Shown here: one piece after another, positions 26,001-62,745 of the stretch | Layout of the letters: every line of letters begins with the position of its first letter | Position numbering within the stretch: the stretch's first letter is position 1 | Source: Leuctra nigra | Taxonomy: Eukaryota; Arthropoda; Insecta; Plecoptera; Leuctridae | Direction: 5' to 3' | DNA: 64,000 nt | Assembly: GCA_934045905.1 (NCBI GenBank) | Contig: OW203768.1 | Coordinates: 1,392,316-1,456,315 of the forward strand | Translations under genes and position numbers: made by a program | The notes under the pieces: model-generated | Seen by the model: the letters and a program-made list of their open reading frames with translations, nothing else | What the model was told of the DNA's origin: nothing | The model's database searches: none

Positions 26001-29000
26001 AATACTCTACGTCTTTAAGATGATACTAGCGCTCGGCCGTTTTAGAAAATTGAGCGAGAAAAATTGTTATATAAGTAAGTGTAACTTTTACAGGATGTTC
26101 ACATGATCAGTCTGATTGTATATTGGTAGCACTTCTTAATTTTTGTTCATTGCATCGTTAATTAGGCGCCGGTTATTCAACAAAAACGTGAAAAACTATG
26201 AAATTTGCGATACGATTGGAGACCAAACCCGTTAACCAATTGATCTCAAATTTTAATTATGATTAGATGAAAGACAAAATTAGGGTTATCGCTTGGCACA
26301 TTTTTGAAATTTAATTCTATACGGCGCCCAGGGAGACCAGAAAATAGCTAATTTTTCACCAAAAATCCACTAATTATTACTAATTAACGAAACAAAAAAT
26401 TAAAAATGTACCAAGGGATAACCCTAAGTTTGTCTTTTATCTAATCACGATAAAAATTTCAAATAATTTGGTCTACCCATTTCGTCTCCAATCGTATCGC
26501 AAAAAGTGTCTACAAAAGGCAGCAAAAACGCTCGCACTTGCAGCACCTTAACATTGAATTTCTCAAGTGGACGAGATTAAGGGCAGGGTTTTTTTGCGCA
26601 TTTAAACTGTAAAATAACTTTTCTGAGCTCACCCTGCTAGCAAGGACCAATCAGAAATGAATCTTCAATGTCTATTACCATGGAATGCAGTAAAGTTGTG
26701 ACATTTCACGAACAGTTGTTTTAAAAATTAGTGTATGCTGAATTGAAATAAAAGGGTGATGAGAACTGGTACACTGACCCTAGATATAAAATTTAGTCGA
26801 GTAGTATTGAATAGCCAGTGAAAAACCAATTAATTAACTTTCTTTCATAAAGTTTATTTAAAAAAAAACAAGAAACAAAATATCGGAAAATCAAAATTTT
26901 CTTGGTTGAAAATACTATTTCGACTTGCATATCAATCTATTTTTTCCTGATTTCAGACTCATGGCTAGATTGAATCTCTGTTTTCTATGTGTGTTTTTAC
27001 GAACTTACCGTGTACACGAGTACAGTGTAGTCCTGCTTGGCAAGCGTTGCGCACGCGAGGTACAGTCCCGCGCGGCTGAAGCGCACCACGAAGCAGCCCC
27101 GCGCGCCGGTGGGGAGTGCGAGCGCGCGCTTGTTGGGCACCTTGCAGGACTGCGTGGGCAGCCGGCTCCACGCCACGCGCTCCACGCCGGGAGCTGAGGG
27201 AGCGGAGATGTCGGCGGCCGCCAGCTCAGTCAAGCCCTCGGGGCTCTGGGGCAAGCAACAGGGCACTTTAAATTAAACTCAAAACTTACTTAAAGGGTTG
27301 TGCGAACCTTCAATTCTTAAGTCGAACCGAACCCCAACCTCTCGATTTCCAAACCTTTAAAAACTGTGCATCGAGTCAAATTTCAAATAATGCCTTTTGT
27401 ACCAAGAGATTACATCAATTTAACACAAAGCAATGGAATTTTGAGGTTTCTGTTTATTAATCATGGTAAAACACCTGTTACTGTTGCCAACAATACTTTC
27501 TCAGTGTCTTCACTTTAAGAAATGTGATGTGACCAATCAAGACAAGTGATTTTAATTGGCAACTAGTAGCTGGTAATAACGCTAATAAACAAATCATTAA
27601 GCATTTCATAAGGTTCGAAAAACAAACCTGGGAGTTTGAAAATTGAACCTTTAGGCCCGGTTTGGTTTAAGTTGGTTTTCAAAATGGTTCGCACAACCCT
27701 AAATATCAGATCAATTGGTAGACCGGTGTAACCTGGGCATGGCCTACAAAACCAAATACACCGACAAAGCAAGTGCCACAAGATGAGTGTACCTTGTGCG
27801 TTGCGGTTGCGTTCTCCCCCTGCATGGCCAGACGGGACCGGAGCACCGGCGCCAGGTTGCTCGGCGGTCGTATCGCCTTCACCGTGACGTACAGCGTGCC
27901 GGGGTACTTCCTCCATCCCCCGTCCCTCCACCAGCTGTACGCCGCGCAGCTGTCGCAGCCGGCCCGGCGCACGGCGGCCGGCCGGTACAGCTGCAGGCGG
28001 CACTCGCGCTCGATGTTCAGGTGTCCGTTGCCGCCCACCGGCTTGAGGAACGCCCACGCCACGCGATGCCAGCCCCCGTCGGCGCCTGCACATTGCAGTC
28101 AGGTCACATTGCATTGATTTGTCAACGAAATCACACAATAATTATATTTTTTGCCTTCAAGGGCCCAAACCCGTTAAAATTACTTATTTGTGGGATAAAA
28201 TTAGAAATATCAAATAAGTATTAATATTAATAACTATTGATTGGTTAGAAGGAAATACATAAAAATTACATATCAATTGCATAGAAATTTGTATAGGTAA
28301 TTGATATTTAATATTTATAAAATTCGTAAAAATGTTGAACATTCAAATATAGCAAAATAATTATCACATGGGTTTAAAATTGGTAAGATACCTATTTTCA
28401 TGGTGTTTAACCTCACACTTTCTGCAACCAGGCTAAGAGAGACGGATGAATGATTATAATGATGATTGGGAGATGATGATGAAGAATAGACAGAGGGAAG
28501 GAGACGGTCATGGCCTAAGTAGAACCCCTTCCCAATATTTGCCTCTCGCCTAAGTGAAACCTGCCCGTAAGGACGGCCCCAGAGTGTACTTGGCACCTGT
28601 CGCTCACCCAGCTTCTTGTACTGGTCGCTGGCCACGGAGAAGCTGACGGAGTTCAAGATCTCCAGCAACACGATGACCGGTCGGTCAGGGTTGAGGATGC
28701 AGCTGATGTCCTCGTTGAACACGATCAGCTCCTCCCAGCTCGGTGTCGTCGACCTGACAACACAAGCTCACATGATTCATAGCAAGATCTCCAGCAACAC
28801 GATGACCGGTCGGTCGGGGTCGAAGATGCAGCTGATGTCCTCGTTGAACACGATCAGCTCCTCCCAGCTCGGTGTCGTCGACCTGACAACATAAGCTCAC
28901 ATGATTCATAGCAAGATCTCCAGCAACACGATGACCGGTCGGTTGGGGTTGAGGATGCAGCTGATGTCCTCGTTGAACACGATCAGCTCCTCCCAGCTCG

Positions 29001-32000
29001 GTGTCGTCGACCTGACAACACAAGCTCACATGATTCATAGCAAGATCTCCAGCAACACGATGACCGGTTGGTCGGGGTTGAGGATGCAGCTGATGTCCTC
29101 GTTGAACACGATCAGCTCCTCCCAGCTCGGTGTCGTCGACCTGACAACATAAGCTCACATGATTCATAGCAAGATCTCCAGCAACACGATGACCGGTCGG
29201 TCGGGGTTGAGGATGCAGCTTATGTCCTCGTTGAACACGATCAGCTCCTCCCAGCTCGGTGTCGTCGACCTGACAACACAAGCTCACATGATTCATAGCA
29301 AGATCTCCAGCAACACGATGACCGGTCGGTCGGGGTTGAGGATGCAGCTGATGTCCTCGTTGAACACGATCAGCTCCTCCCAGCTCGGTGTCGTCGACCT
29401 GACAACACAAGCTCACATGATTCATAGCAAGATCTCCAGCAACACGATGACCGGTCGGTCGGGGTTGAGGATGCAGCTGATGTCCTCGTTGAACACGATC
29501 AGCTCCTCCCAGCTCGGTGTCGTCGACCTGACAACACAAGCTCACATGATTCATAGCAAGATCTCCAGCAACACGATGACCGGTCGGTCGTGGTTGAGGA
29601 TGCAGCTGATGTCCTCGTTGAACACGATCAGCTCCTCCCAGCTCGGTGTCGTCGACCTGACAACACAAGCTCACATGATTCATAGCAAGATCTCCAGCAA
29701 CACGATGACCGGTCGGTTGGGGTTGAGGATGCAGCTGATGTCCTCGTTGAACACGATCAGCTCCTCCCAGCTCGGTGTCGTCGACCTGACAACACAAGCT
29801 CACATGATTCATAGCAAGATCTCCAGCAACACGATGACCGGTCGGTTGGGGTTGAGGATGCAGCTGATGTCCTCGTTGAACACGATCAGCTCCTCCCAGC
29901 TCGGTGTCGTCGACCTGACAACACAAGCTCACATGATTCATAGCAAGATATCAAGTCAATTTTTTTTACCTAGTAACTAGGAAAACGCTTGGTGTTGCGC
30001 GTATATCTTACCCCGGAATATCGTAACGTACAGAAAATATAATATACATCCATAGTGAATTGAAATACGATCCACTCGATCAAAATAAAATTATCTGATC
30101 TTCATTGAAACTGAGAAAAGCCATCTAGAGATACACTCTGATCCGTAAAGAAAATCAGATCTAAGTTGCACTGGAAATTAAATGTCGATAAAATCTCTTC
30201 TGACATTCTATTTAAATGTCAATACATTCTCTTTTGATTGGCTAGAAACTTGTAAAATTCGAGAAAATGGTAGTCTTAATGTCCATGCAAAGTTTGAACT
30301 TAATCGGAACATTTTGATTTTCGACCAATCGGGAGATATTTTTATTTTTAAACCAATCATAGGTCAGCTCTCAAAAACTATAGGTACACAATTAAGTTAG
30401 ATGATAGTATATGTGCAAAATTTCAGCTCCATCTAAAAAAATTTGTGACCTGTGGCGTTGGGCCAAAAAAATAAGAAAGTGTGCAAAAGTGCAGAACGAA
30501 GTCGCTCGCTCCCTCACCTTCTGGCGTGAAAGTCGTACTCCTGCGTCATGAGCGGGGAGATGAAGTCGACGCTCTCGCTCTCGTTGAAGTACGCCACCGA
30601 GCGCCTGGGATCGCTCTTCTTCAGATACTCCCCGCTGGCCGTCTCCACGATGTAGACCTTGACCAGCGGACTCCGCAGCAAGCGGTCGGGCTGCAGCGGG
30701 TCGCAGCGGTGCACGTACACGCCGATTATCTCCTCGTAGCGGAGCTCGGGATTCTGGGCTACGGGGCTGTGCATAAAGTACGTCATGTTAAAAATGGGAT
30801 AGGTATTTTGACACCCCCCCCCCCCCCCCCCTCCTCCCTATCTCGCTGTGTCACACTTTTCGCGACCCCCCCTCTAATAGGACGTCACAAATCTGTCGCT
30901 ACCCCCCCCTAAAGTAGAATATTTTTTACTTTAAAATGTATCAGAATTTATCGTTTTTAGCGAAATTTCCGGTCCCGACATATCAACTGAAATTTAAAAT
31001 GTTTGAAAATAGAGATGGGCCGATACCGATACCGATACTCGCGATACCACCTACCATCGGTGGTATCGGTATCGGTCAATTTTAATGCAATATTTTCGAT
31101 ACTTCGATACTTATTACTTTTTTGGTTGAAATTTTGAAATGTAGCCGTTTTCCCGCCATTGGTGCTCATTGGCATCACATCAGTGAGCTGTATCACCATT
31201 GGCAGATGCCTCAACCAATCAGAGCCAAGGTTGCAAGTGACATAATCTCCAAAAAAATCTCTAGTTTTGTGAATTTTGATTGAATTGAGACCATGGTGGA
31301 CAGGAACTACAGAAATATAAAGAAACAAAAGTATCGGCGATACTATCGGTATCGCTAATCATAAAGTGAGTATCGGTATCGGTGAAAAAGTGGTATCGAC
31401 CCATCTCTATTTGAAAATCTATATCAAAAAGATGACGTCCTACTACCTCCAATACCCCCCTCCCCCCCACCCCAGCCCCTACACCGCTGGGGGAACATTG
31501 TCTAGTAGACAAGTAGGTACCTAGCTATAAATCATTAACATTTTGGTACATGTAGTGTAGCCTACTATTAAAAATTGATTGGAAATCAAAAGAAAAAAAA
31601 TATAGAAAAAAATGCTCTTTGCACACACTGATTTCAAATTTTTGTTAACAAAGGTAGAGAGCCATAAAAGCTGAACTAGTTTAAAACACATCCAGTTTCT
31701 AAATGTTGGCAAAACGTATAAAACCTACAATAAACCTTAAACAATTTTAAGTACTAACTACCTCATCCACCTTAGTGCCTAGAGAAGCTAATTGTCGAGT
31801 TTGTTGAAAATGTTTGCCATGCGGAAATGAATCACATTCACAGCACAATGGATTCAGCTAATTTAACATTGATAGGTAAAACAAAAGATTTCTTTTGCTT
31901 TTGCATAGTGGAACATTTTCGCATGCGGTTTCAACTCGAAAATAGGCACCCTGGAGAAAGCCATGGAACAAGTTTTGTCATGCAAATAAAATCACTGAAA

Positions 32001-33305
32001 ATGTAATTATCGATACAGTCACCTAAAATAAAATAATGATTGGAAATACAACAATATTAGTTAGGTATATCTTGGAGAGTACGTAAGGTACCTCTCCAGT
32101 GTGTGGACAAAACACGTCCATCTTGCATAAAGGCTTCTAGACTACCCAACTTGAGGTACATTTGTTAAAAGTACCTGTCATCGTGAGCCTTCTCTTGATT
32201 CCCGACTCGACGGCTGGGTGAGATCTCCTCGTACGAAGCCTTGAGGTTCTGCATCTCGATGTCCCCCATTTTCTTGGCTTTGCGTCGGACTTTCGGCACC
32301 GGACCGCCATCTTTCTCCAAGTTCTCGTAGCTCGCGGACGTCGCGGAGTAGAGTGGAGGAGCCGGCTCCCGGTCGTCTTCGATCAGATCCTGGCTGGATT
32401 CCGTCGACAGTTTGTTGCGTTGAGTCTCCGGCTTCTTGTCTCTACGCTTTCTCGGAACTGGGACCGGTTTTTTAGGTGAAGCTTCTCGTGGAGGTGATAC
32501 TTCGTCGGAAACGTCTGCTTTATGAATTGTGTAACTTAAACGACGTCTGACAGCGTTCTTGTTATTCTTATCGTCGTCGGAGCTCGAATCAAAGTATTGG
32601 ACGGATTGGCTTTGAGTCCTACGCTTTTCTTTAACTTCAGCCAACTCTTCGTTTTTTTTCAGTTCATCTCGATTAGACTGTTTTAAATTTTTACTAACTT
32701 TAAGACTTGGTAGTTGACCACTTCGTATTAACCCTCCAGAATTATTTCCAGCTGGGTTTTGCGTGATAACGTCGTCATCACTCGATGACACATGGACTTC
32801 TTGAGTCTCGTCGATATCAATGTTGTCGCCTCTCACAAAGCCAGGTTTCTTGGGTTTCTCGGAAATAAAAGTCACCGTAGAAGTGTTCTCGCGTTCAGGT
32901 GGCAACTTTTCCAAATCTCTCTGCATTGGTACGAAGCAAGAGAGAGCATAAAGATGAGTTTTATTTTCAAAACTCCAACCGTCATCAGTTAGAAAATAGT
33001 GCAACGATTAACGAACAAGTGCTCTTCTAGGTTAGATTGCAGTTAGTCATCAGACAAAGTGCAAACGCTCTACGTGCATTGAAAACAACACAGTGAGTTA
33101 GTAAATATCCACAGTTTAGTGACAAACTTACATCAGCAGTGTTCTTGTCACGCTTCTTCTTCTTCCCTGATGTACCCTTCTCCTTGGTCAAAGCTGAACG
33201 CAATAGATCATCGAAGCGCGATCTCGTATCGACAGTAATTGACCGGGTTGGACTCGGATATTGTGTCAGAGGAATTTCATCCTCAACTAGGGAATGCTTC
33301 CCCAT
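20033..33305 (-). CDS. AHI1: Jouberin (AHI1), WD40 ciliary transition-zone protein
   Basis: Eleven exons: 33305-33132, 32920-32175, 30766-30518, 28753-28608, 28085-27793, 27245-27009, 25775-25617, 24487-24359, 23224-23088, 21627-21466 and 20732-20033. They join without frameshift to 1043 residues. Exons 1-2 encode a charged, disordered N-terminus. Exons 3-5 encode the conserved pre-WD40 region (IIGVYVHRCDPLQPDRLL, SPLMTQEYDF, SWEELIVFNEDISC, VAWAFLKPVGGNGHLNI, YPGTLYVTVKA). WD40 repeats follow (CKVPNKRALALPTGARGC; LSGHQGLVYDLNWSADD; LPHPGFVYAARFSP; CFDKDGTLVSGDSVGRILVW; GGSRLLVHSRDSLLRMVDL; SPCGGLVLAATEDGTVCVWN; YHPFEHMAAFCSA). The vertebrate C-terminal SH3 domain is absent, replaced by TPSKSP repeats and a basic end. 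AHI1 acts at the ciliary transition zone (family knowledge). Exon 4 is preceded by a nine-fold copy of its own acceptor region. Confidence 0.95.
20090..20300 (-). repeat. AHI1: In-frame TPSKSP coding repeat in AHI1
   Basis: About six imperfect copies of a TPSKSP-x(5-9) unit in the C-terminal tail. At DNA level the segment GGGCTTTTAGATGG recurs. Low-complexity, Ser/Pro/Lys-rich and probably disordered. Confidence 0.8.
20772..20893. mobile_element. Short MITE (GAATTC/CCATCAGAATGG family), copy at 60466
   Basis: An inverted copy with the core ATCCTTATGGCCATGACCG and flanking TTCCCAATTCTGATGGAATT appears at 60466-60590, so this is a mobile repeat. It lies in the last AHI1 intron. Confidence 0.65.
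21925..22185 (+). repeat. Dispersed repeat shared with the core of the 61.4-kb hAT-like element
   Basis: AAATTGCTCCTAAAAC, ATATAGGGTCAC, AAGAAAGAAAATGTG, CAAATATGAATTATTTTG and the final CGGTAAG block recur in the same order at about 61685-61912. Confidence 0.7.
22637..22690 (+). repeat. Copy of the GAAAACGCTC...GATGAGCGAGC motif
   Basis: GGAAAACGCTCTGTGTAACG followed by GTTGATGAGCGAGC, in an AHI1 intron. Other copies: 33784-33815, 37290-37327, 56907-57135 (split by a MITE), 57747-57793 (-), 60726-60770 (-) and 60973-60998. Confidence 0.75.
23588..23732. mobile_element. MITE with TTAGGGCC ends
   Basis: The left end CTTAGGGCCAGTTTGTCC and right end ACGGCCCTTAG face each other. A related truncated piece with TTAGGGCCGGGTTTTCAA and the shared GCCATGGCA core is at 25849-25970. 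It lies in an AHI1 intron. Confidence 0.55.
23919..24310 (+). repeat. Retroposon-like repeat with (TTA)n head
   Basis: Starts with (TTA)n and carries GGAAACCCGGTACCGGCATG, GGACCAACGGCTTAACGTCC, TCGCTTAACCTCGGTGATC and CCAACACACCAGCCGTTGG. These look like a conserved retroposon 3' region. A shorter copy is at 13337-13480. It lies in the AHI1 intron ahead of exon 9. Confidence 0.6.
24713..25442. mobile_element. Foldback element with ~300-bp arms (copy 1)
   Basis: TCCGCTCGATTGGAGTGCCG at the left returns inverted at the right (GCACTCCAATCGAGCGGA), as do ACCTGACGTGCCTTCAA and GGTGGCCATCTTGGAAAA. The arms face a short AT-rich centre. A complete copy in the opposite orientation is at 59626-60356. 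There is no coding capacity. It lies in an AHI1 intron. Confidence 0.85.
26019..26547. mobile_element. TTAA-flanked 529-bp element (intact copy)
   Basis: Flanked by TTAA at 26015-26018 and 26548-26551. Ends read GATGATACTAGCGCTCGG and, inverted, GGTGCTGCAAGTGCGAGC. The centre is itself an inverted repeat around TAGGGTTATC. A second copy (40423-44506) is also flanked by TTAA and is exactly 529 bp once its Harbinger insert is removed. A piggyBac-type non-autonomous element is the best fit. Confidence 0.85.
27293..27701. mobile_element. hAT-like MITE with GGTTCG-rich ends (copy 2)
   Basis: Ends are AAGGGTTGTGCGAACC and inverted GGTTCGCACAACCCT. The interior is homologous to 12065-12502 in the opposite orientation. 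It sits in the AHI1 intron between exons 5 and 6. Confidence 0.75.
28420..28603. repeat. SINE-like dispersed repeat next to AHI1 exon 4
   Basis: GATTGGGAGATGATGATGA and GACGGTCATGGCCTAAGTAG, ending five bases before the exon 4 donor side. Related to 18726-18895. Confidence 0.4.
28656..29948 (-). repeat. Tandem array 1: 129-bp unit over the AHI1 exon 4 acceptor, 10 acceptors
   Basis: The unit is about 32 bp of intron end (reading GTGTTGTCAG at the splice site) plus the first ~97 bp of exon 4. Acceptors recur every 129 bp from 28753 to 29914, ten in all. The copy at 28753 continues into the complete exon and its donor; the others have no donor. In the exon reading frame each extra copy ends LEILL-stop (TGA) at the unit junction. 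The outer intron edge carries ATCTTG, as does the exon at the inner breakpoint, so the first duplication may have used this 6-bp homology. Long ORFs on both strands here are by-products of a unit divisible by three. Confidence 0.95.
30812..31480. mobile_element. C-rich element split by a hAT-like insert
   Basis: A poly(C) run, GCGACCCCCC and AGGACGTCAC on the left face TGACGTCCT and AATACCCCCCTCCCCCCC on the right, forming imperfect inverted ends around the 31010-31409 insert. No ORF. It lies in the AHI1 intron between exons 2 and 3. Confidence 0.5.
31010..31409. mobile_element. Non-autonomous hAT-like element, 8-bp TSD tttgaaaa
   Basis: Ends are TAGAGATGGGCCGATACC and, inverted, TAGAGATGGGTCGATACC. 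TTTGAAAA flanks exactly at 31002-31009 and 31410-31417. Subterminal GATACCGATACC and GGTATCGGTATCGG repeats. Sister family to 18071-18417. Confidence 0.9.
31770..31951. repeat. Decayed copy of the 14.7-kb nested MITE
   Basis: The right end reads GCATGCGGTTTCAACTCG then AATAGGCACCCTGGAG, matching the right end of 14689-15387. The left end is badly eroded. Confidence 0.5.
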
Positions 33306-33627
33306 CTTCAGAAAATTACGGAATATACCACAAATACACAAACAAATCTAAATTATCTTCGCCAAACCAAAAACACAACAAACTCTAGCTGTCAAACCGC
33401 CATTTGTAAACAAAAGCACCTGCTTGCGCGAACGCGATGCGCTCTCAAATTGCGGGAAATTTAAACACACATTTGATTGAAATCGTGTACACAAAATTTC
33501 GTTGCTATAAGCATAAACTATAAGCTAAGTAGCCCATTCAAAGATTGAATAATGTGATACTAATTATTGAAATAAAATATTCTTTGCATTGGTGCTAGTG
33601 CAGTGACTTCTCTGAAGTAAGTTAATT
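33306..33627. other. Intergenic, AHI1 promoter region and channel gene 3' end
   Basis: 322 bp between the AHI1 start and the channel stop, both genes on the minus strand. It must hold the AHI1 promoter and the channel 3' UTR. No clear AATAAA or TATA was seen. Confidence 0.5.
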
Positions 33628-36600
33628 CTATTTCTTTCTCCACTGTTTAGCTCGATAGTTTCCGTAAATCCTCGGCAAGAAGTAGTAAAATATTTCCACG
33701 AAGCTGAGCAGACTTGCCCCCATGAAGAGCCCCGCAGTTCCACCCATTGACACTGTGAATGACAAGGTGTGTGAATACGCGTGGAAAACGCTCAGTAGGC
33801 GTTGATGAGCAAGCAAGCGACTCACCGACTAGATCCAGCACACCGCGCACAACGTTGCGCTTTAACCGCACTGTTGGCAGGTAGTCCAGTCTCAACGTGA
33901 TGGATGTCTCACCAGACCGACTGCACAACAACAGTACATTAGGGACCCTGTCTCTAGTTGTAGCATGGATAAAACACGATGTAGCTACGATGTGTTGATT
34001 TCCACTCTATGATGGGGTTCATTAGGTAGGTGTACACTGCTAATGCTGCAGCACTGAATAATTTCGTCGATGTCGGAGGCCCCCTTTCTTTACAAGATTC
34101 TGGCTTTATCTGCCAGAATCTGCCAGAATCTGGCGGGTTTCCTTGCAATCTGGTGAAATGTAAGACGATCTCAGCCGGATGTGACAAGAATTTGACCTTG
34201 GTCTTTACGTAAGAACGAGGCGGCATTCTTTCTCAGCAGACATCAACGACAGACTTGCTGATCCCAAACAAAGAATTGTTTGTCAATGACATCCGAGGGG
34301 TAAGCTATTCCGGAAATCTGGTGTACACTAGCCTAGAAATCTTTGGAAATCTTGAAAATCTAGGAAAACTCTAGAAATCCTAGAAATCTTAAAAATCTTG
34401 GAATCTTAAGAAATCTTTTGATTTTGTAATATTTGGAAATCTTGTAAATCTTTTGAAATCTTTGGAAATCTTGGAAAATTTGGAACTCTTTGGAAAACTT
34501 GTGAAAACTTGGAAATCTTGGAAAATCTGCGGAAATCCCTGATAATCCTAGACATTTTCTGAAATCATTGATGTATTTGGAAAGCATTGAAATCTTTGAA
34601 ATCTTATGAAATCTTAGAATCTTCGGAAATCTTGGAAATCCAAAATCATGTGCACACCAAAACTTTTAGTCGCCAACCCCTCGATGACATCTAAATGATG
34701 ATCTCACCCCTTGCCGGCCTCATCGGGGGACTCGGCTTGTATCTGCACATCCACACAGCTCTGCGCGCAGCCGCAATACAGCCCCTTGCCTTGGCTCCAG
34801 GACGACTTCATCACGACGAACTGCGAGAACTTGGACTCCAGACACATGAGTCCTGTCAGGTTGCAGCTGCGGTCCACGCTGGCTGGAACACATCATATAG
34901 CAGACAGCAATACAGCCCCTTGCCTTGGCTCCAGGACGACTTCATCACGATGAACTGCGAGAACTTGGACTCCAGACACATGAGTCCTGTCAGGTTGCAG
35001 CTGCGGTCCACGCTGGCTGGAACACATCATATAGCACACAGCAATACAGCCCCTTGCCTTGGCTCCAGGACGACTAAATCACGATGAACTGCGAGAACTT
35101 GGACTCCAGACACATGAGTCCTGTCAGGTTGCAGCTGCGGTCCACGCTGGCTGGAACACATCATATAGCAGACAGCAATACAGCCCCTTGCCTTGGCTCC
35201 AGGACGACTTCATCACGATGAACTGCGAGAACTTGGACTCCCGACACATGAGTCCTGTCAGGTTGCAGCTGCGGTCCACGCTGGCTGGAACACATCATAT
35301 AGCAGACAGCAATACAGCCCCTTGCCTTGGCTCCAGGACGACTTCATCACGATGAACTGCGAGAACTTGGACTCCAGACACATGAGTCCGGTGAGGTTGC
35401 AGCTGCGGTCCACGCTGGCTGGAACACATCATATAGCAGACAGCAATACAGCCCCTTGCTTTGGCTCCAGGACGACTTCATCACGACGAACTGCGAGAAC
35501 TTGGACTCCAGGCACATGAGTCCGGTCAGGTTTCAGCTGCGGTCCACGCTGGCTGGAACACTTCATATAGCAGACAGCAATACAGCCCCTTGCCTTGGCT
35601 CCAGGACGACTTCATCACGATGAACTGCGAGAACTTGGACTCCAGACACATGAGTCCTGTCAGGTTGCAGCTGCGGTCCACGCTGGCTGGAACACATCAT
35701 ATAGCAGACAGCAATACAGCCCCTTGCCTTGGCTCCAGGACGACTTCATCACGATGAACTGCGAGAACTTGGACTACAGACACATGAGTCCTGTCAGGTT
35801 GCAGCTGCGGTCCACGCTGGCTGGAACACATCATATAGCAGACAGCAATACAGCCCCTTGCCTTGGCTCCAGGACGACTTCATCACGATGAACTGCGAGA
35901 ACTTGGACTCCAGGCACATGAGTCATGTGAGGTTGCAGCTGCGGTCCACGCTGGCTGGAACACATCATATAGCAAACAGCAATACAGCCCCTTGCCTTGG
36001 CTCCAGGACGACTTCATCACGATGAACTGCGAGAACTTGGACTCCAGGCACATGAGTCCTGTCAGGTTGCAGCTGCGGTCCACGCTGGCTGGAACACATC
36101 ATATAGCAGACAGCAATACAGCCCCTTGCCTTGGCTCCAGGACGACTTCATCACGATGAACTGCGAGAACTTGGACTCCAGACACATGAGTCCTGTCAGG
36201 TTGCAGCAGCGGTCCACGCTGGCTGGAACACATCATATAGCAGACAGCAGTACAGCCCCTTGCCTTGGCTCCAGGACGACTTCATCACGACGAACTGCGA
36301 GAACTTGGACTCCAGACACATGAGTCCTGTCAGGTTGCAGCTGCGGTCCACGCTGGCTGGAACACATCATATAGCAGACAGCAATACAGCCCCTTGCCTT
36401 GGCTCCAGGACGACTTCATCACGATGAACCAGTGGCGGCTATTTGGCTTTACAACAGGTGTTCAATTACATAGAAGGACGTAGAAGAAAGTACTCTAAGA
36501 GGAGAGCCCCCAGCAGATGCGGGGCCGGGGCGCATAACCCCGAATTTTTTTGTATCTTTAGTTTGAAATTGATGCATTTTTACGTCTTTTGGAGAGCAAA

Positions 36601-48600: not shown

Positions 48601-51600
48601 AACAGTTGGGGTTCTTGATCTCGCCCTTGTCGTCAATGCAGTTGGATCTGATGAACGCCGCTCCTTGTCTGAAGAACACCAGCTCCTGAGCGGCGATACG
48701 CGTGTTGTATTCCTCCGTCTTGAACTCCCTAGCAACAGAATCAACAGTTGGGGTTCTTGACCTCGCCCTTGTCGTCAATGCAGTTTGATCTGATGAACGC
48801 GGCTCCTTGTCTGAAGAACACCAGCTCCTGAGCGGCGATACGCGTGTTGTATTCCTAAGTCTTGAACTCCCTAGCAACAGAATCAACAGTTGGGGTCCTT
48901 GATCTCGCCCTTGTCGTCAATGCAGTTGGATCTGATGAACGCCGCTCCTTGTCTGAAGAACACCAGCTCCTGAGCGGCGATACGCGTGTTGTATTCCTCC
49001 GTCTTGAACTCCCTAGCAACAGAATCAACAGTTGGGGTTCTTGACCTCGCCCTTGTCGTCAATGCAGTTAGATCTGATGAACGCGGCTCCTTGTCTGAAG
49101 AACACCAGCTCCTGAGCGGCGATACGCGTGTTGTATTCCTCCGTCTTGAACTCCCTAGCAACAGAATCAACAGTTGGGGTTCTTGATCTCGCCCTTGTCG
49201 TCAATGCAGTTGGATCTGATGAACGCCGCTCCTTGTCTGAAGAACACCAGCTCCTGAGCGGCGATACGCGTGTTGTATTCCTCCGTCTTGAACTCCCTAG
49301 CAACAGAATCAACAGTTAGGGTTCTTGATCTCTCCCTTGTCGTCAATGCAGTTGGATCTGATGAACGCGGCTCCTTGTCTGAAGAACATTAGCTCCTGAG
49401 CGGCGATACGCGTGTTGTTTTCCTCCGTCTTGAACTCCCTAGCAACAGAATCAACAGTTGGGGTTCTTGATCTCGCCCTTGTCGTCAATGCAGTTGGATC
49501 TGATGAACGCCGCTCCTTGTCTGAAGAACACCAGCTCCTGAGCGGCGATACGCGTGTTGTATTCCTCCGTCTTGAACTCCCTAGCAACAGAATCAACAGT
49601 TGGGGTTCTTGATCTCTCCCTTGAAGTCAATGTAGTTGGATCTGATGAACGCGGCTCCTTGTCTGAAGAACATTAGCTCCTGAGCGGCGATACGCGTGTT
49701 GTTTTCCTCCGTCTTGAACTCCCTAGCAACAGAATCAACAGTTGGGGTTGATCTCGCCCTTGTCGTCAATGCAGTTGGATCTGATGAACGCGGCTCCTTG
49801 TCTGAAGAACACCAGCTCCTGAGCGGCGATACGCGTGTTGTATTCCTCCGTCTTGAACTCCCTAGCAACAGAATCAACAGTTGGGGTTCTTGACCTCGCC
49901 CTTGTCGTCAATGCAGTTGGATCTGATGAACGCCGCTCCTTGTCTGAAGAACACCAGCTCCTGAGCGGCGATACGCGTGTTGTATTCCTCCGTCTTGAAC
50001 TCCCTAGCAACAGAATCAACAGTTGGGGTTCTTGATCTCGCCCTTGTCGTCAATGCAGTTGGATCTGATGAACGCCGCTCCTTGTCTGAAGAACACCAGC
50101 TCCTGAGCGGCGATACGCGTGTTGTATTCCTCCGTCTTGAACTCCCTAGCAACAGAATCAACAGTTGGGGTTCTTGACCTCGCCCTTGTCGTCAATGCAG
50201 TTGGATCTGATGAACGCCGCGCCTTGTCTGAAGAACACCAGCTCCTGAGCGGCGATACGCGTGTTGTATTCCTCCGTCTTGAACTCCCTAGCAACAGAAT
50301 CAACAGTTGGGGTTCTTGACCTCGCCCTTGTCGTCAATGCAGTTGGATCTGATGAACGCCGCTCCTTGTCTGAAGAACACCAGCTCCTGAGCGGCGATAC
50401 GCGTGTTGTATTCCTCCGTCTTGAACTCCCTAGCAACAGAATCAACAGTTGGGGTTCTTGATCTCTCCCTTGTCGTCAATGCAGTTGGATCTGATGAACG
50501 CGGCTCCTTGTCTGAAGAACACCAGCTCCTGAGCGGCGATACGCGTGTTGTATTCCTCCGTCTTGAACTCCCTAGCAACAGAATCAACAGTTGGGGTTCT
50601 TGATCTCGCCCTTGTCGTCAATGCAGTTGGATCTGATGAACGCGGCTCCTTGTCTGAAGAACACCAGCTCCTGAGCGGCGATACGCGTGTTGTTTTCCTC
50701 CGTCTTGAACTCCCTAGCAACAGAATCAACAGTTGGGGTTCTTGATCTCGCCCTTGTCGTCAATGCAGTTGGATCTGATGAACGCGGCTCCTTGTCTGAA
50801 GAACACCAGCTCCTGAGCGGCGATACGCGTGTTGTATTCCTCCGTCTTGAACTCCCTAGCAACAGAATCAACAGTTGGGGTTCTTGATCTCGCCCTTGTC
50901 GTCAATGCAGTTAGATCTGATGAACGCCGCTCCTTGTCTGAAGAACACCAGCTCCTGAGCGGCGATACGCGTGTTGTATTCCTCCGTCTTGAACTCCCTA
51001 GCAACAGAATCAACAGTTGGGGTTCTTGATCTCGCCCTTGTCGTCAATGCAGTTGGATCTGATGAACGCCGCTCCTTGTCTGAAGAACACCAGCTCCTGA
51101 GCGGCGATACGCGTGTTGTATTCCTCCGTCTTGAACTCCCTAGCAACAGAATCAACAGTTGGGGTTCTTGTTCTCGCCCTTGTCGTCAATGCAGTTGGAT
51201 CTGATGAACGCCGCGCCTTGTCTGAAGAACACCAGCTCCTGAGCGGCGATACGCGTGTTGTATTCCTCCGTCTTGAACTCCCTAGCAACAGAATCAACAG
51301 TTGGGGTTCTTGATCTCGCCCTTGTCGTCAATGCAGTTAGATCTGATGAACGCCGCTCCTTGTCTGAAGAACACCAGCTCCTGAGCGGCGATACGCGTGT
51401 TGTATTCCTCCGTCTTGAACTCCCTAGCAACGGAATAATCACCTAGAGTCGGTGACAGGCAAAGAGGACCCACTTTAGCATTGACAGGTATAGGGCGGCC
51501 CATGCTAGTGCGGGTTCATCTTTTCATACATTCATACATTCATTCATTTTGAATGTACCTTATACCATACTCATGAAGTACACTCGGCCAAACAAAAATT

Positions 51601-54600
51601 GATCGTTGATCAAATTTGAATGACTGATGGTCATGTCCCATACCAATCTAAGCTTGTTATTATCATTGAAATTTGGGGTCACCTACTAGAGTGAGACAAG
51701 GAGATCGCTTGGACTGACTTCGGATGGTGCAATCTAACATTTATCATTCAATCAAATTTGATCAACGATCAATTTTTGTTTGGCCGAGTGTACCTCATAG
51801 TAAATGAAACAAAAAATATTCTTCAAACTATTATGAAAATTAAAACTTTCATGTAAGATGTCATGAAAACTATTATAACATGATTTTGTCGTGTTTTGTC
51901 GTTCTTCTTTTAGGCACATTAATTTGCTTCACTACCAGACTGAATATGACACAGAATGGAGGCATTACCTTCATTAGATCTGGTTTGTCTTTTAATTCAA
52001 AGCAGCGACATGTTAAACCCTCTTAATTTTTTTTTCAATATGACTATTGTATTTGCATCCCCCGCAAAAGTTCAGCCCCCCCCCCCCCTCCACCCGATAG
52101 ACACCGAAGATTTTCAAGTTCCAATAAAATGCCTGACTGTGAACATTTTTTATTTGTTTAAATTTCAACGAGATGGCGACATAACACTAGCCTTCCGAGT
52201 TCCGCGTGTCTACAGTTCGTTTTTCCTATGTATGAACCAATGACCTATTATATTCTAGACAAATTCAGTTGCGCGGGAAGTGAAGCCTCGCGTAAGTCAC
52301 GTGATGACTGGACTACTGCAAAGCGAATAGCCCAGCTAAATCAGAATTAAAATCGGCATTTGTTACATAGGTCTTATAATCAGCTGAAAATTTACACACT
52401 TATTCGAAACCATGTTACCCCTACACCAAAGTTTTTTCAACAAAAAACTTTTTCCAGAAGTTGTTAAAAAAATAAAAAGAATGACAATTTATCAAAACAA
52501 TAAAATTTACGATATACAATTGATTTACTCTGAAAGTACGCATCATAAAATTATAAAATAAATACAGGTTGAAGGTAGTAGATTAATAAAAAGGTATATA
52601 CAAAAGTGAAGTCTCAAAACTGTTCAATTTTAATTGTGTAGTCATATAAAGTAAAAAATTAACAGAATAGTCCAAAAACGTTTCGGAGACCTTTCCGAAA
52701 ATGTTAAAGCGACAACCCCCAATTTTTATTCACTTACTATCAAGAACACAGTACCAGGATGTTTTACATACTTTTGTCAAGTTTATTGGAGCAAAATAAA
52801 GGTGTCAAACTGAATTGCAGAGCTATGTATTACAAAGCGCGCGTCTTCTGTTGGCCAACCATCACGTGGTACAGCGCATATCTCTGTCTCTGTCTGACTC
52901 ACGGCATCTGTCTCACTCACACGCCGGCCGGCCGGCTTCACTCGCTCCCGTGTACTGGTATTATAATGCGCCGTCTACTGAAAGTATTAATAGGTCATTG
53001 GTATGAACTCTCTACAGACCGAGACACCGTCAGTTGTTCTGTAAGGCCGAGAAAGACAACATTGCAAGGTGAGCGCGCAATGAAGTCTTTCTCGGCCTAG
53101 CAGAACAACTGACTGTGGCTCCATCTGCAGTGCGATTGTATAACTTTCCCAAATGCTAACAATATCAATAACAATAATGGTTTCCCTAACGATCATTATC
53201 GTACACTAGCAACCAGTGTGATTGTATAAGGATAACAATAAAAATCGTTGAGATATAAATTGTATTTAGATCTTTCAAAGTTGGCGGTATCCATACGTCA
53301 CTTCCGTTTTAAACCATCCAATGAAATTGCAGTATTATTTTAAAATGAAAATTCGAATGTTTAAAGTATGTTGTGATTTTAAGTTTTGTTTCAAACTCTT
53401 TGAAGAAACAATTTTAGAATGGGGTTGTTCACGCAAAACTATTGTAGATGGCGCTGCTGTTCTAATCGTCCGGGAGAGAGCCAATCAAAATTCATCTAGC
53501 GGAATGGAAGGTTTTTAAACCTTGGCGGGAGTTTGATTCATAGATCTTGGATTCAGAGACCAACCAATCAGAGTGAGACACCTCCAACGCCACTAGCGCT
53601 GCGAGTGAGAGCAATGGCAGTGAACAACCCCATTACAATATGTCTTCAAGGTAGGTTTTACTTTATTTAAAAACATGTTATTTAATTAGTTGACACACAA
53701 TTTTGCTAAATATATTCACAAATATTTTTTTAAAAATTTTGCCAAAATTTTATAAATCTTTACAACTATTTTTTATTTAATATTTTAAAAATTCATACAA
53801 AAAGCAATTGAAAAATATTAAAATATTTTTTCTATGTTATTTTGACTTCTATTTTCACGAATCATTATTTTAGTATATGAACTGCAAATTTTAAAAGATT
53901 TGACCTCCGGAAAATTTGCAGTTCATATACTAAACATCATCCCATCTGAGACTGTCAGATTATTTCTACATTTCAATCATTATTTTGGAACATTTTCTGT
54001 TAATTTTGAAATTTTTGACAAAATTTAGCCAAAATCTTGTAAAATGTTCCCCAAAAAATAATTTGTCAAGATTTTTAAAAATTATAAAAAAATTATGAAG
54101 CTATTAGGTAAAATATTTTAAATTATTTTTACATTGACTTGTGAAAATTTTATAAAATTTTTGCAACATTTTGAAATAGTACTTTCTTAATTTCATTTTT
54201 TTTATCCTTAAAATAATATTTGTAAATATTATATAAAATAATGGCAAAATTTTGAAAAAATTATTTGTGAAAAGCAAGCAAAATGTCGAGCTACTAAAAT
54301 CCCTTCGCTTTTATTCGGTAGCCAATCTCAAAAGCAGACGAAAGAGAAATGCATAAATGTTTGCCATCACCATTCTGTCACCCACGAATTCAAGTGTCAC
54401 CATAACCTCAAAATCCAGCTGACTCATCACGCGACATTCCACCTCGCAATTTAAACATCTAATTTTGACATAAATAAAGACCAGTTTTTCATTACCTAAG
54501 TAATAATAAAATGGTAATATGTGTAACATTGTAATTATCTTGCTTTTTTTACTATACTATACATTGTATCGCTGTTAATAGTGATATAAATGTCAAAATC

Positions 54601-55179
54601 CTAATATTGTTATCGATAATGGCTGGGTACAAAGCAATCGTTATCTCCAAGCAGCGTAGTCATTTGTTTTTCATTTAGATTGTTAGCAAAATGTTATACA
54701 ATCACACTTTCATCAAATGTTATAGATAACGATCCATTATCTCGGCTAAGAAAGTTATACAATCGCACTGCTGGTGAGAGTTCAAACAGAGGAAAAACGA
54801 ACTGTAACTACTGAATAGACGATTCCATAAAGTATCTGAGGTGCTCTGGTTTCTAAGACAATGCCCCTGGCGTTTTGATTTCCACCTACCTAATGCTGTG
54901 TCAACAATGAGTTACACGTCAAGGTATCTGGAGATCGAACCAGAGCCACTCAGATACTTGATGGAATCGTCTTTGACTCACTGTGCACAGATCCTCCTGA
55001 TGAACTCCTTGTCGGTGTTCCTCTCGCAGAATGTGATGGCTGGGAACTCGGTCTGCCAGTCCAAGTAGGCCGTGTCGACCGCGAAGCTGACGGCGTTGTT
55101 CTGGAAGGCCTCCCACGCATCCCACATGATGTATCCCGTGCCCATCCAGGACAGAACCAGGAAGAACAGCCAGCATATG
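33628..55179 (-). CDS. DEG/ENaC (pickpocket-type) sodium channel subunit, N-terminus missing
   Basis: Nine exons: 55179-54982, 47308-47149, 45761-45631, 45270-45177, 44583-44531, 39567-39326, 34882-34708, 33920-33826 and 33752-33628. All phases agree and encode 424 residues. They begin inside the first membrane segment (CWLFFLVLSWMGTGYIMWDA), followed by the family block FPAITFCERN. The extracellular Cys-rich domain has CTWNNVEFDCCEYF, ETELGVCYSINSM, RQCRFPEESDLESFRYYSPG, GCLTDCRRRAQISACNC and the next Cys set. The end carries GGTAGLFMGASLLSFVEIFYYF, with the G-A-S selectivity filter and second membrane segment. These are trimeric amiloride-sensitive Na+ channels, sensory in insects (family knowledge). 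The exon for the cytosolic N-terminus must lie above 56.9 kb or outside the window. Three exons are preceded by tandem copies of their own acceptor. The ligand and the exact ppk subfamily are not known. Confidence 0.93.
34325..34650 (-). repeat. Degenerate ~10-bp tandem repeat (TGGAAATCTT)
   Basis: More than 20 imperfect copies of GGAAATCTTG-like decamers in the channel intron between exons 7 and 8. Frames through it are meaningless low-complexity peptides. Confidence 0.85.
34773..36800 (-). repeat. Tandem array 2: 134-bp unit over a channel exon acceptor, 13 acceptors
   Basis: The unit is the intron end reading GATGTGTTCCAG plus the first ~110 bp of channel exon 7. Acceptors recur every 134 bp from 34882 to 36356, and a thirteenth at 36787 is displaced only by a hAT-like insert and its 8-bp duplication (134+289+8 bp). 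Only the 34882 copy leads to a donor. Read in the exon frame, an extra copy runs on for 41 nt of the next unit and then stops (TGA). Copies are close to identical. Scattered changes include Val/Ile (GTC/ATC) between the exon and most units. Confidence 0.95.
36430..36718. mobile_element. hAT-like element inside array 2, 8-bp TSD cgatgaac
   Basis: Ends are a perfect CAGTGGCGGCTATT inverted repeat. CGATGAAC flanks at 36422-36429 and 36719-36726. It interrupts a repeat unit, so it arrived after the array formed. 289 bp, no ORF. Confidence 0.93.
37096..37239. mobile_element. Short MITE with GGATTCACAAAAAGTATTAT ends
   Basis: The left GGCTGGATTCACAAAAAG and the inverted right GGTCAGATTCACAAAAAG continue into matching AGATAATA arms. 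About 144 bp, in the channel intron between exons 6 and 7. Confidence 0.8.
37285..38690. repeat. Dispersed repeat family with GAAAACGCTC...GATGAGCGAGC border
   Basis: Begins with GGAAAACGCTCTGAGTAACG and GTTGATGAGCGAGC, includes the block shared with 13597-13850 and 57880-58110, and ends near CGCTCGCTTCGCTCGCTC. Pieces of it recur at 22637, 30180-30470 and 57120-61060. No protein is recognised. Confidence 0.65.
38771..38932. mobile_element. 162-bp MITE with TTAGGGCCGGTATAACC ends
   Basis: TTAGGGCCGGTATAACCAAA and, inverted, TTAGGCCCGGAATAACCAAA continue into AGTTAA on both sides. Non-coding, in a channel intron. Confidence 0.85.
39926..40051. mobile_element. 126-bp MITE with ATGGCGTTTT ends
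   Basis: TATGGCGTTTTCGGCTGGCC and GGGTTTGCA face TGCAAACCC and GGCCAACCAAAAACGCCAT. Non-coding. Confidence 0.8.
40690..44241 (+). mobile_element. PIF/Harbinger DNA transposon, 3-bp TSD AGG
   Basis: Inverted ends GGGGGTCATTCTGGTAGCGG match on both sides, with subterminal TTGCAAC repeats. The paralogous empty site at 26 kb reads TTAGGGTTATC and here is TTAGG-element-AGGGTTATC, so the duplication is AGG, 3 bp as usual for Harbinger. The interior carries a broken HARBI1-type nuclease. 3552 bp, in the channel intron between exons 5 and 6. Confidence 0.93.
40873..42477 (+). pseudogene. Degenerate Harbinger (HARBI1-like) transposase
   Basis: Conserved pieces in order but in different frames: FASGGFQWLVGSNCHLSQSS then RIITAVVNAIY; KFPNVVGAVDVTQ, the VGAVDGTH nuclease motif with changed residues; and NIVERCIGPDWRC then LHDCVRPPQHGLDF near the end. 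Stops and frameshifts separate them. Part of the break at about 41697 looks like an intron donor (GTGAGT). Probably inactive. Confidence 0.75.
46048..46450. repeat. Truncated copy of the 529-bp TTAA element
   Basis: CAAGCGCTCGGCCGTGGGAG, TAATTAGGCGCCGGTTATTCA and GTACAAAGTGATAATCCTAAG match the 26-kb element in order. Ends are eroded. Confidence 0.7.
46451..47148. other. Channel intron DNA, nothing recognised
   Basis: No repeat structure or coding signal was recognised before the exon donor at 47148-47141. Confidence 0.5.
47182..51435 (-). repeat. Tandem array 3: 142-bp unit over a channel exon acceptor, 30 copies
   Basis: The unit is about 18 bp of intron end (TGATTCTGTTGCTAG) plus the first ~124 bp of channel exon 2. 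Thirty copies, the innermost being the exon itself (acceptor at 47308), span 4.25 kb. One copy has a 3-bp deletion near 49749. Units differ at scattered sites, several at third codon positions (GCC GCA / GCG GCG), others changing a residue (TAC/AAC, ATC/GTC). In the exon frame each extra unit ends NPNC-stop (TGA) at the junction. The repeated 95- and 66-codon ORFs on both strands are artefacts of the repeat. Confidence 0.95.
51578..51793. mobile_element. MITE with near-perfect ~46-bp inverted ends
   Basis: GTACACTCGGCCAAACAAAA at the left and its exact inverse at the right, continuing through TTGATCGTTGATCAAATTTG. 216 bp, in the channel intron between exons 1 and 2 as numbered here. Confidence 0.85.
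51794..53020. other. Channel intron DNA without recognised genes
   Basis: Contains a poly(C) run near 52077-52088 and a (CCGG)n stretch near 52924. Two overlapping ORFs at 52759-53100 have no recognisable features. Confidence 0.5.
53031..53111. ncRNA. Candidate hairpin RNA or foldback, 27-bp stem
   Basis: 53031-53057 pairs with 53085-53111 (25 of 27 positions; CAGTTGTTCTG and GGCCGAGAAAGAC), and ATTGC/GCAAT extend pairing into the loop. Flanks add a few more pairs. The size fits a pre-miRNA, but a small MITE is equally possible. Confidence 0.3.
53416..53635. mobile_element. Nested MITE with AATGGGGTTGTTCAC ends
   Basis: AGAATGGGGTTGTTCAC faces GTGAACAACCCCATTAC across about 220 bp. Non-coding. 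Confidence 0.65.
53871..53932. ncRNA. Candidate hairpin, perfect 22-bp stem with 18-nt loop
   Basis: TAGTATATGAACTGCAAATT(TT) at 53871-53892 is exactly complementary to 53911-53932. The loop is AAAAGATTTGACCTCCGG. Stem length is miRNA-like but shorter than a typical ~33-bp pri-miRNA stem. It could be an AT-rich micro-element. Confidence 0.3.
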
Positions 55180-56866
55180 CTAGACATATCAGTATCACAT
55201 GATGTAGCCAGTCCCCATCCAGGACAGAACCAGGAAGAACAGCCAGCATATGCTAGACATATCAGTATCACATGATGTAGCCAGTCCCCATCCAGGACAG
55301 AACCAGGAAGAACAGCCAGCATATGCTAGACATATCAGTATCACATGATGTAGCCAGTCCCCATCCAGGACAGAACCAGGAAGAACAGCCAGCATATGCT
55401 AGACATATCAGTATCACATGATGTAGCCAGTCCCCATCCAGGACAGAACCAGGAAGAACAGCCAGCATATGCTAGACATATCAGTATCACATGATGTAGC
55501 CAGTCCCCATCCAGGACAGAACCAGGAAGAACAGCCAGCATATGCTAGACATATCAGTATCACATGATGTAGCCAGTCCCCATCCAGGACAGAACCAGGA
55601 AGAACAGCCAGCATATGCTAGACATATCAGTATCACATGATGTAGCCAGTCCCCATCCAGGACAGAACCAGGAAGAACAGCCAGCATATGCTAGACATAT
55701 CAGTATCACATGATGTAGCCAGTCCCCATCCAGGACAGAACCAGGAAGAACAGCCAGCATATGCTAGACATATCAGTATCACATGATGTAGCCAGTCCCC
55801 ATCCAGGACAGAACCAGGAAGAACAGCCAGCATATGCTAGACATATCAGTATCACATGATGTAGCCAGTCCCCATCCAGGACAGAACCAGGAAGAACAGC
55901 CAGCATATGCTAGACATATCAGTATCACATGATGTAGCCAGTCCCCATCCAGGACAGAACCAGGAAGAACAGCCAGCATATGCTAGACATATCAGTATCA
56001 CATGATGTAGCCAGTCCCCATCCAGGACAGAACCAGGAAGAACAGCCAGCATATGCTAGACATATCAGTATCACATGATGTAGCCAGTCCCCATCCAGGA
56101 CAGAACCAGGAAGAACAGCCAGCATATGCTAGACATATCAGTATCACATGATGTAGCCAGTCCCCATCCAGGACAGAACCAGGAAGAACAGCCAGCATAT
56201 GCTAGACATATCAGTATCACATGATGTAGCCAGTCCCCATCCAGGACAGAACCAGGAAGAACAGCCAGCATATGCTAGACATATCAGTATCACATGATGT
56301 AGCCAGTCCCCATCCAGGACAGAACCAGGAAGAACAGCCAGCATATGCTAGACATATCAGTATCACATGATGTAGCCAGTCCCCATCCAGGACAGAACCA
56401 GGAAGAACAGCCAGCATATGCTAGACATATCAGTATCACATGATGTAGCCAGTCCCCATCCAGGACAGAACCAGGAAGAACAGCCAGCATATGCTAGACA
56501 TATCAGTATCACATGATGTAGCCAGTCCCCATCCAGGACAGAACCAGGAAGAACAGCCAGCATATGCTAGACATATCAGTATCACATGATGTAGCCAGTC
56601 CCCATCCAGGACAGAACCAGGAAGAACAGCCAGCATATGCTAGACATATCAGTATCACATGATGTAGCCAGTCCCCATCCAGGACAGAACCAGGAAGAAC
56701 AGCCAGCATATGCTAGACATATCAGTATCACATGATGTAGCCAGTCCCCATCCAGGACAGAACCAGGAAGAACAGCCAGCATATGCTAGACATATCAGTA
56801 TCACATGATGTAGCCAGTCCCCATCCAGGACAGAACCAGGAAGAACAGCCAGCATATGCTGGCAGA
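55123..56866 (-). repeat. Tandem array 4: 73-bp unit over the first-membrane-segment exon acceptor, 24 acceptors
   Basis: The unit is about 18 bp of intron end (ACTGATATGTCTAG) plus the first ~55 bp of the exon encoding CWLFFLVLSWMGTGYIM. Acceptors recur every 73 bp from 55179 to 56858. Array units appear identical to one another. The functional exon differs from them at three sites, all third codon positions (GGC ACG GGA in the exon, GGG ACT GGC in units), leaving the peptide unchanged. In the exon frame each extra unit ends GYIM-stop (TGA). Confidence 0.95.
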
Positions 56867-61327: not shown

Positions 61328-62745
61328 AACCATTCCAGATGTCGTTATCCATCGTCCCTCTTCAACCGTCTTCCAGTCTTCCCCTCTTCTTCAATCAAAC
61401 TAGGGATGGAGCGAACTTGGATTTTGATATCGACTATCGATATCATTTATATATCGATATATATCGATATATCGATACTTCGATATATCGATATATTGAA
61501 ATATCGAAATATCGAAATATCGAAATATTGAAATATCGAAATATCGAAATATCGATATATTGAAATATCGAAGTATCGATATATCGATATATCGATATAT
61601 TGAAATATCGAAATATCGAAATATTGATATGGAAATAATATTTAGATGTATAGGTATGGAAATATTGATATATCGTATGAATGTATTAAATTGCTCCTAA
61701 AACTGCTAGGAATTTCAAAAGAAAATGTAAAAAGAAATAACACAGCTGTTCCAAAATATAGGGTCACCGGCCAGATAAGAAAGAAAATGTGAATAATCTG
61801 AGAAATTGTCCATAAATCTTGTTTGTAAACGCTGCACTGCAAATATGAATTATTTTGCCATAGTAGGTATAAACTTCAATTAAGAACATAATTGTATCAT
61901 GCGGTAAGGCTTCAATATATCGATATTTCAATATATCGATATTTCAATATTTCGATATTTCAATATATCGATATTTCGATATTTCAATATTTCGATATTT
62001 CGATATTTCAATATTTCGATATTTCAATATTTCAATATATCGATATATCGATATTTCAATATATCGATATATCGATATTTCAATATATCGATATTCAATG
62101 TATACAGGTATCGATATTTCGATATTTTTTTGATATCGATATATATCGATATATCGATATTTTCTCCATCCCTAAATCAAACTCTTCCACTGTGCTCTAG
62201 GCCTTTTAACGCTTCTCTTTCTAATAACATTTGATTCCAACTCTTGCCTGGCCATTCTTCCAATATCCATTCTCTTCATGTTACCAAACCACCTCAATCT
62301 CTCCCCCTCCCCAACTGGAATCCCAATCTCTCCACACCCAATTCCTTCCTTATCTTTGAACTTCTAATTCTGTCGAACTTCGTAACTCTTTCGAACTCCT
62401 AAGAAATTTCATCTCCCCAACATTCCAGGAAATGTTTAAATATCAGTAATTTACATTTTAATCTTAGCTCCAATGAAATTTTCTAACTGACTGATAATAG
62501 CATTCAGCCACATTCATGATTGCATTTCTCTCCCATAGTTGCATTTTTTGTAAACATACTTCCTAAGTATTTGAACTCCTTCTCCTCCTTTTGCCTTTCT
62601 ATCCATAACTTTCATAACTTGTTTCCAGTAAAAGTGCAGACTAAATCCTCGACTAGTTCCAGTTCATCCTGCGCATCTCTGTTGGCAAGGTCCAGCCGTT
62701 TAGGAAGCGATGATAGCCAGAGCACTGTCTCTTACGCCTAGGCGG
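61328..62745 (-). pseudogene. Decayed LINE reverse transcriptase, interrupted by a hAT-like element
   Basis: On the minus strand, EFKYLGSMFT, then RLRWFGNMKRMD and RPRAQWKSLIEE are recognisable, the same C-terminal landmarks as the LINE at 2.7-4.0 kb, but with stops and shifts. The hAT-like element at 61401-62174 splits the block near WKSLIEE. Confidence 0.75.
61401..62174. mobile_element. hAT-like element with ATCGAT(AT) arrays, 8-bp TSD aatcaaac
   Basis: Ends are TAGGGATGGAG and its inverse CTCCATCCCTA. AATCAAAC flanks at 61393-61400 and 62175-62182. Both arms are long imperfect runs of ATATCGAT / ATATCGAA motifs, in opposite orientation. The core (61685-61912) is the dispersed repeat also present at 21925-22185. 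Confidence 0.9.

Follow-up and report, generated by a model that had tools for sequence, protein, structure and literature searches.

Tandem arrays at exon edges in two adjacent genes of Leuctra nigra and at other loci of its genome

In two adjacent minus-strand genes of Leuctra nigra, four exons each terminate a head-to-tail array whose unit joins the end of the preceding intron, the acceptor and the start of the exon, and arrays carrying exon edges were also found on other contigs of the same genome. We consider it probable that these arrays are exon-edge minisatellites of the kind known in amphioxus as mirages, and that they arose where a duplication seeded in an exon expanded, with splicing acting as the filter on what survives. 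Throughout, the window is the whole stretch of 64,000 nucleotides that was analysed.

Four arrays in the window and their host genes

The host genes are a jouberin (AHI1) gene, which matches a Diploptera protein at 52% and has its best matches in cockroaches, stick insects and a katydid (49-53%), and a DEG/ENaC channel gene, identified by a Pfam ASC match. Four relatives of the channel were found among 140 candidates (Phaedon, Gonioctena, Nilaparvata and Cylas). With these beetle and planthopper proteins, tblastn (matches displayed for three of the four) placed eight channel exons and missed the exon of array A3, which aligns in frame to the proteins of Phaedon and Nilaparvata, where it directly follows the A4 exon. 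In the list below, the real exon is the one that closes its array.

20282..33305, minus strand: jouberin (AHI1) gene, 11 exons by tblastn homology, one of them weak (E 0.15)
28608..28753, minus strand: real jouberin exon closing A1; in tblastn with three insect jouberins the match extends past the repeated part in this copy only; donor by reading
28654..29949, minus strand: array A1, jouberin (AHI1) gene, 10 x 129 bp (100 bp of exon start, 29 bp of intron end); TRF, AG in 10 of 10 units
33631..55179, minus strand: DEG/ENaC gene of the Nach/pickpocket-like kind, exons 2-9, with exon 1 beyond the window near coordinate 72,800
34708..34882 (end approximate), minus strand: real DEG/ENaC exon closing A2; the tblastn match extends past the array in this copy only
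34773..36811, minus strand: array A2, DEG/ENaC gene, 13 x 134 bp (110 bp of exon start, 24 bp of intron end); a transposon splits the first copy
36430..36718, minus strand: hAT-like non-autonomous transposon of 289 bp, with 14-bp TIRs and an 8-bp target-site duplication GTTCATCG, inside the first A2 unit
47149..47308, minus strand: real DEG/ENaC exon closing A3, read from sequence; phase 2 agrees with the donor at 54981; in-frame alignment to relatives
47182..51436, minus strand: array A3, DEG/ENaC gene, 30 x 142 bp (127 bp of exon start, 15 bp of intron end); one copy of 139 bp
54982..55179, minus strand: real DEG/ENaC exon closing A4, first transmembrane segment (Pfam ASC, tblastn); differs from 23 copies at three third-codon positions
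55123..56866, minus strand: array A4, DEG/ENaC gene, 24 x 73 bp (57 bp of exon start, 16 bp of intron end); 23 identical copies

The original prediction had given 10, 13, 30 and 24 copies of units of 129, 134, 142 and 73 bp, and TRF together with unit splitting returned exactly these values for arrays that were cut at the exon start, with the unit of the real exon counted in. The TRF spans are 28654-29949 (129 bp x 10.0), 34773-36429 (134 bp x 12.4), 47182-51436 (142 bp x 30.0) and 55123-56860 (73 bp x 23.8); the second ends at 36429 because the 289-bp insertion splits the first A2 unit. The acceptor lies inside the unit of every array, with the first 57-127 bp of the exon joined to the last 15-29 bp of the preceding intron, and AG stands immediately 5' of the exon start in all 77 units of A1-A4. 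On the minus strand the arrays follow one another in the order A4, A3, A2, A1. When the units of A1-A4 were compared with one another by eye, no cross-similarity was seen, and the results support the earlier view that the four arrays are independent, share one anatomy and originated at exon edges.

Each of the four repeated exon segments is found in a single place in the related proteins compared. Read in the true frame, the units of A1, A3 and A4 run into stops, and the length of the A2 unit is not divisible by three. In A1, A2 and A4 the 60 bases 5' of the real exon are identical to those 5' of the second copy, and in A3 a single exonic base differs; the real acceptor thus carries no stronger local signal. 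An in-frame ATG in each A4 unit raised the alternative that A4 is the first exon, with its start codon repeated. This was rejected, because an upstream exon with the HG motif of the family ends in a phase-2 donor (exon end GAGAG, intron start GTGAGA; beyond the window, at about 72,740 in its coordinates) whose phase agrees with the A4 acceptor.

Once the transposon and one target-site copy are subtracted, the first A2 unit is exactly 134 bp long. The element is a recently active MITE, with at least 40 full-length matches at 99-100%, itself counted, among the best 40 scored of 502 candidates. Simple assembly stutter is ruled out for A2, since a transposon with an 8-bp target-site duplication lies within one of its units. 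Elsewhere in the window, 8-bp simple repeat arrays of the ATATCGAA type occur in both orientations at 61427-62162, and a long open frame at 2652-4019 has, by eye, the look of a non-LTR retrotransposon reverse transcriptase.

Models of the two genes place 18 acceptors and 17 donors within the window, the modelled acceptors lying in 37 kb. Under random placement, the chance of finding an acceptor within a unit is 0.0625, 0.065, 0.069 and 0.035 for the individual arrays (product 9.8e-6, several exon edges being approximate), and the same calculation for any splice site gives a product of 1.3e-4. The location of all four arrays on acceptors is therefore far beyond chance under random placement (P about 1e-5). 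As the window was picked for its arrays, the independent evidence is that of the wider genome sample.

Exon-edge arrays elsewhere in the genome

The genome surveyed comprises 536 Mb in 144 contigs, referred to below by short handles (C3, C7 and so on). A stretch of 264 kb that contains the window and its surroundings held 12 larger arrays (unit of at least 40 bp, at least 2.5 copies, score 300): A1-A4, the array at C7:1327944-1355570 and seven that look non-exonic by eye. Four 10-kb stretches from other contigs were also sampled, one of which, on C3, held an acceptor array. The C8 locus was picked from the DEG/ENaC list partly for its 833-aa open frame, a length that any in-frame array would increase, and the C3 tiles L033 and L034 were picked because they lie beside an array.

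C7:1327944-1355570: array in a UPF0489 gene (Pfam above cut-off), 158 bp x about 175; the real exon is the first copy
C7:1381660-1381801: two-copy acceptor duplication (2.0 copies, laxer scan) adjoining a long open frame; exon by open frame only
C3: TRP-like gene with a three-copy acceptor array; Ion_trans below cut-off, covering the exon 5' of the repeated one
C11:20302035-20330365: DEG/ENaC locus (ASC above cut-off), unit of 161 bp repeated about 176 times, as estimated from the span; three stretches of the array were read
C8:18677652-18679486: second DEG/ENaC locus (ASC above cut-off), donor-only array with 15 copies of 123 bp, the first of them being the real exon
C3:5014654-5015149 (L033 4654-5149): in-frame coding array, 129 bp x 3.8, wholly coding; odorant-receptor-like by eye

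The single fully coding array has a unit of 129 bp, which is divisible by three; a Pfam search of its open frame did not confirm the odorant-receptor likeness, and a Pfam search of the open frame beside C7:1381660-1381801 gave no match. In the 158-bp array on C7, the GT donor is kept in 159 of 169 readable copies, and on a whole-exon reading 21 nt would separate the donor from the next acceptor. We took this array as whole-exon because its junction holds a degenerate acceptor-like stretch, TATTGCATCAG; on a strict reading it is a donor array, and the one-sided score is then 6:2. The C11 units were read as a whole exon, donor included. The classified exon-edge arrays thus comprise six acceptor-only, one donor-only and two whole-exon arrays, a tally that omits the in-frame coding array and four loci that resisted classification: C7:1461272, C7:1305191, L034:6344-7087 and L027:4140-4399. 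The last two, both on C3 (66 bp x 11.3 and 94 bp x 2.8, respectively), could not be placed on an exon.

These results support the prediction that such arrays occur outside the window, as they do on C3, C7, C8 and C11. Since donor-side as well as acceptor-side duplications are present, the rule is the exon edge rather than the acceptor alone. The claim that donors and whole exons are never covered by an array is true of the window and fails elsewhere in the genome, and an acceptor-only origin was rejected, a donor array and arrays read as whole-exon having been found in the same genome. The proposed confinement of the process to 3' splice sites is contradicted by the donor-only array on C8, the arrays with donors on C7 and C11 and the purely coding array on C3. 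As for the enrichment of acceptors over donors, one-sided arrays at the sampled loci do show an excess of 6:1, but it is not significant (P 0.125); it is possible that the excess is real.

A sample unselected for arrays (200 kb of flank and 40 kb elsewhere) contained three exon-edge arrays. Extrapolation gives some 6,700 arrays for the whole genome (95% interval 1,400-19,600), a very rough figure because the surroundings of the window supplied 200 of the 240 kb and two of the three arrays. In a DEG/ENaC survey (best 93 of 818 candidates), the one regularly spaced cluster was that on C11, and A1-A4 were absent from the survey. No regularly spaced cluster was seen by eye among P450 genes (best 92 of 836 candidates scored, 98 matches), PDZ genes (112 of 112 candidates scored, 67 matches), RRM genes (best 150 of 300, at least 151 matches, multi-RRM proteins set aside) or sugar transporters (best 9 of 255 candidates, 9 matches). 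These surveys of four conserved families (325 matches) reveal only copies long enough to score, and their null results caution against expecting arrays everywhere.

Two further observations were made outside the window. A 118-bp minisatellite unit, probably carried by a transposon, is common to C7:1313146-1313918 and to L028 2184-3068 on C5. A near full-length COX1-like copy lies at C13:51651552-51652892, on a chromosome-sized contig, and is likely a nuclear mitochondrial copy.

Divergence, edges and junctions of the copies

When the real exons of A1-A4 were compared with the consensus of their arrays, six of the seven differing sites fell at third codon positions. Among the copies themselves, 37 variable sites (counted with neither the 139-bp copy of A3 nor the split copy of A2) were distributed 15/7/15 over codon positions 1/2/3 (P 0.18). 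The contrast between the two sets gave a Fisher P of 0.042, with three of the seven sites lying in A4 and not independent. The real copies look to be under constraint and the other copies much less so. The C8 array does not repeat this pattern, because its real copy differs from the consensus at two sites only, both shared with other copies.

Acceptor arrays end with the real exon as their last copy; the donor array begins with it. Units are composed mostly of exon, with intron making up 0.106-0.225 of the unit in six one-sided arrays and 0.6 in one, and an intron share of at most 0.225 in six of seven gives P 7e-4 with a cut-off set post hoc. By eye, junction microhomology is present in A1 (ATCTTG) and in the TRP-like array (CCACC), and the junctions of A2, A3 and A4 show fillers or small indels, not clean microhomology. 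In an informal comparison of array edges, the real A4 copy was three sites off its 23 identical copies, and the left edges of A2-A4 differed by small indels. At these left edges the intron tail of the first copy is three bases longer (about GAG, ATT and GCC) than in the second and real copies, possibly marking edge copies that were left out of homogenisation.

Adjacent double substitutions were noticed in the units at 35150, 48869, 49437 and 49721, two of the four distinct events being GA>TT. Such doublets account for 4 of 50 distinct substitution events among the copies of A1-A3 and the 158-bp C7 array, and for 0 of 7 further events in C8. In the accessible part of one report, GA>TT doublets belong to a class linked to polymerase zeta (PMC5147774); we do not claim error-prone synthesis here, because the doublet events are too few.

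Relation to known arrays, origin and meaning

Ordinary intronic and intergenic minisatellites (VNTRs) form head-to-tail arrays, and unequal exchange is expected in them. The arrays described here are likewise head-to-tail; unlike ordinary minisatellites, however, 5 of the 12 larger arrays in the 264 kb carry exon sequence with a splice site, the other seven being non-exonic by eye. Mirages, reportedly first described by Canestro in 2002, provide a closer parallel. The accessible parts of two reports describe tandem intron-exon boundary repeats in amphioxus Adh3, globins BflGb6 and BflGb9, PGBD5 and TnC, with units of 10 to about 160 bp, at acceptor and donor edges, with the authentic exon at one end and edge copies that escape homogenisation; the globins and Adh3 gave normal RT-PCR products, and some mirages showed length and somatic instability (PMC3087553, PMC3902484). 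The same parts of these reports already show the structure at both exon edges, and the idea that the arrays form a new class of minisatellite was therefore abandoned (PMC3087553, PMC3902484).

We file the insect arrays with mirages because the testable structural features are present, save that edge-copy divergence is no more than suggestive: the unit spans the intron-exon boundary, both edges occur in the genome and the authentic exon lies at one end. The host differs, being an insect and not a cephalochordate, and the arrays are known here from genome sequence alone. Copy number reaches about 175, as compared with 6 and 3 units given for two BflGb6 haplotypes in the accessible amphioxus text, and for some units here we read a whole exon, the donor then lying 21-28 nt from the acceptor that follows. 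Host group, copy number and whole-exon form are thus what is new. Our search of open papers found no mirage-type array in an insect, which is no proof of absence. Intron gain by tandem duplication across an AG/GT site (cited in PMC3087553, in its accessible part) is similar in that a tandem duplication copies splice signals within a gene; it differs in that no new intron is demonstrated here, and the copies appear inside an existing intron.

Alongside this anatomy, we infer three steps. A short tandem duplication (70-161 bp here) would arise with its breakpoint in an exon or close to one, sometimes via 5-6 bp of microhomology. The two-copy repeat would then grow and be homogenised by unequal exchange or slippage, to a maximum of about 175 copies here; a possible founder state of 2.0 copies is seen at C7:1381660-1381801, with 3 copies in the TRP-like gene and many elsewhere. 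Selection would purge arrays that spoil the mRNA, so that survivors keep one exon with its own acceptor and donor, the remaining copies lacking one splice site or being too closely spaced to serve as exons and being spliced out with the intron; other survivors would be purely coding arrays that preserve the frame. The copy beside the real partner site (the last acceptor copy or the first donor copy) is predicted to be used, because only that copy makes a complete exon. Selection alone does not explain why arrays are seeded by exons and not by introns, which are longer; one possible cause is the GC-rich sequence of exons within a region of 41% GC.

A different reading places the cause in a mutational process that acts at 3' splice sites, through lariat intermediates, R-loops or a polymerase that pauses where exons begin, and that favours acceptors, with the donor and whole-exon minority arising separately. 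Six acceptor-only arrays against one donor-only array, and the short intron tail (14-42 nt) in each acceptor unit, are in its favour, and unequal tolerance of the two edges is not an obvious cause, the first donor presumably being safely usable. We nevertheless consider it unlikely, given the donor-only array on C8, the arrays with donors and the in-frame coding array; moreover, the 6:1 ratio gives a P of 0.125, and the window, which was picked for its arrays, contributes four of the six. It is more improbable again that the arrays are selected devices tuning splicing or expression, for example through acceptor competition, as had also been suggested. Three arrays do lie within one channel gene, and the AG is retained in 77 of 77 units; but copy divergence is so low that about one AG change would be expected (an estimate from copy identities), so that retention is no evidence of selection. 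The copies show no clear codon constraint (15/7/15, P 0.18), the units and genes are unrelated, and copy number ranges from 2 to about 176; the proposal is so far without support.

An assembly or polishing artefact behind A1-A4 and their kin would agree with the identity of 23 of 24 A4 units in the single assembly examined. This explanation is very improbable in view of the shared and private variants borne by the A1-A3 units, the intact target-site duplication around the transposon within an A2 unit, and the arrays with differing flanks on C3, C7, C8 and C11. Least probable of all is that transposon-borne satellites landed at exons. Dispersed minisatellites do exist in this genome, such as the 118-bp unit common to C7:1313146 and C5, and by eye a transposon-like stretch adjoins the 158-bp C7 array. 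The sequence of each exon-edge unit, however, is that of the host exon and includes the splice site of that exon, and for a stretch of A1 all five genome matches lay inside A1, in a search that can miss common words.

Duplication seeded in exons remains the preferred origin. It is possible, though somewhat doubtful, that exon sequence recurrently seeds minisatellites genome-wide, on the order of thousands, and that in many genes the spliceosome chooses among up to about 175 near-identical sites, perhaps with a true acceptor excess. If so, such seeding would be a natural experiment on exon recognition and an ongoing source of new exon/intron edges. Should the sampled density hold, the genome would offer many natural competitions between near-identical splice sites, which are otherwise the province of artificial constructs; an origin by exon-edge duplication could then be tested by counting acceptor, donor, whole-exon and in-frame arrays, and mirages would not be peculiar to cephalochordates.
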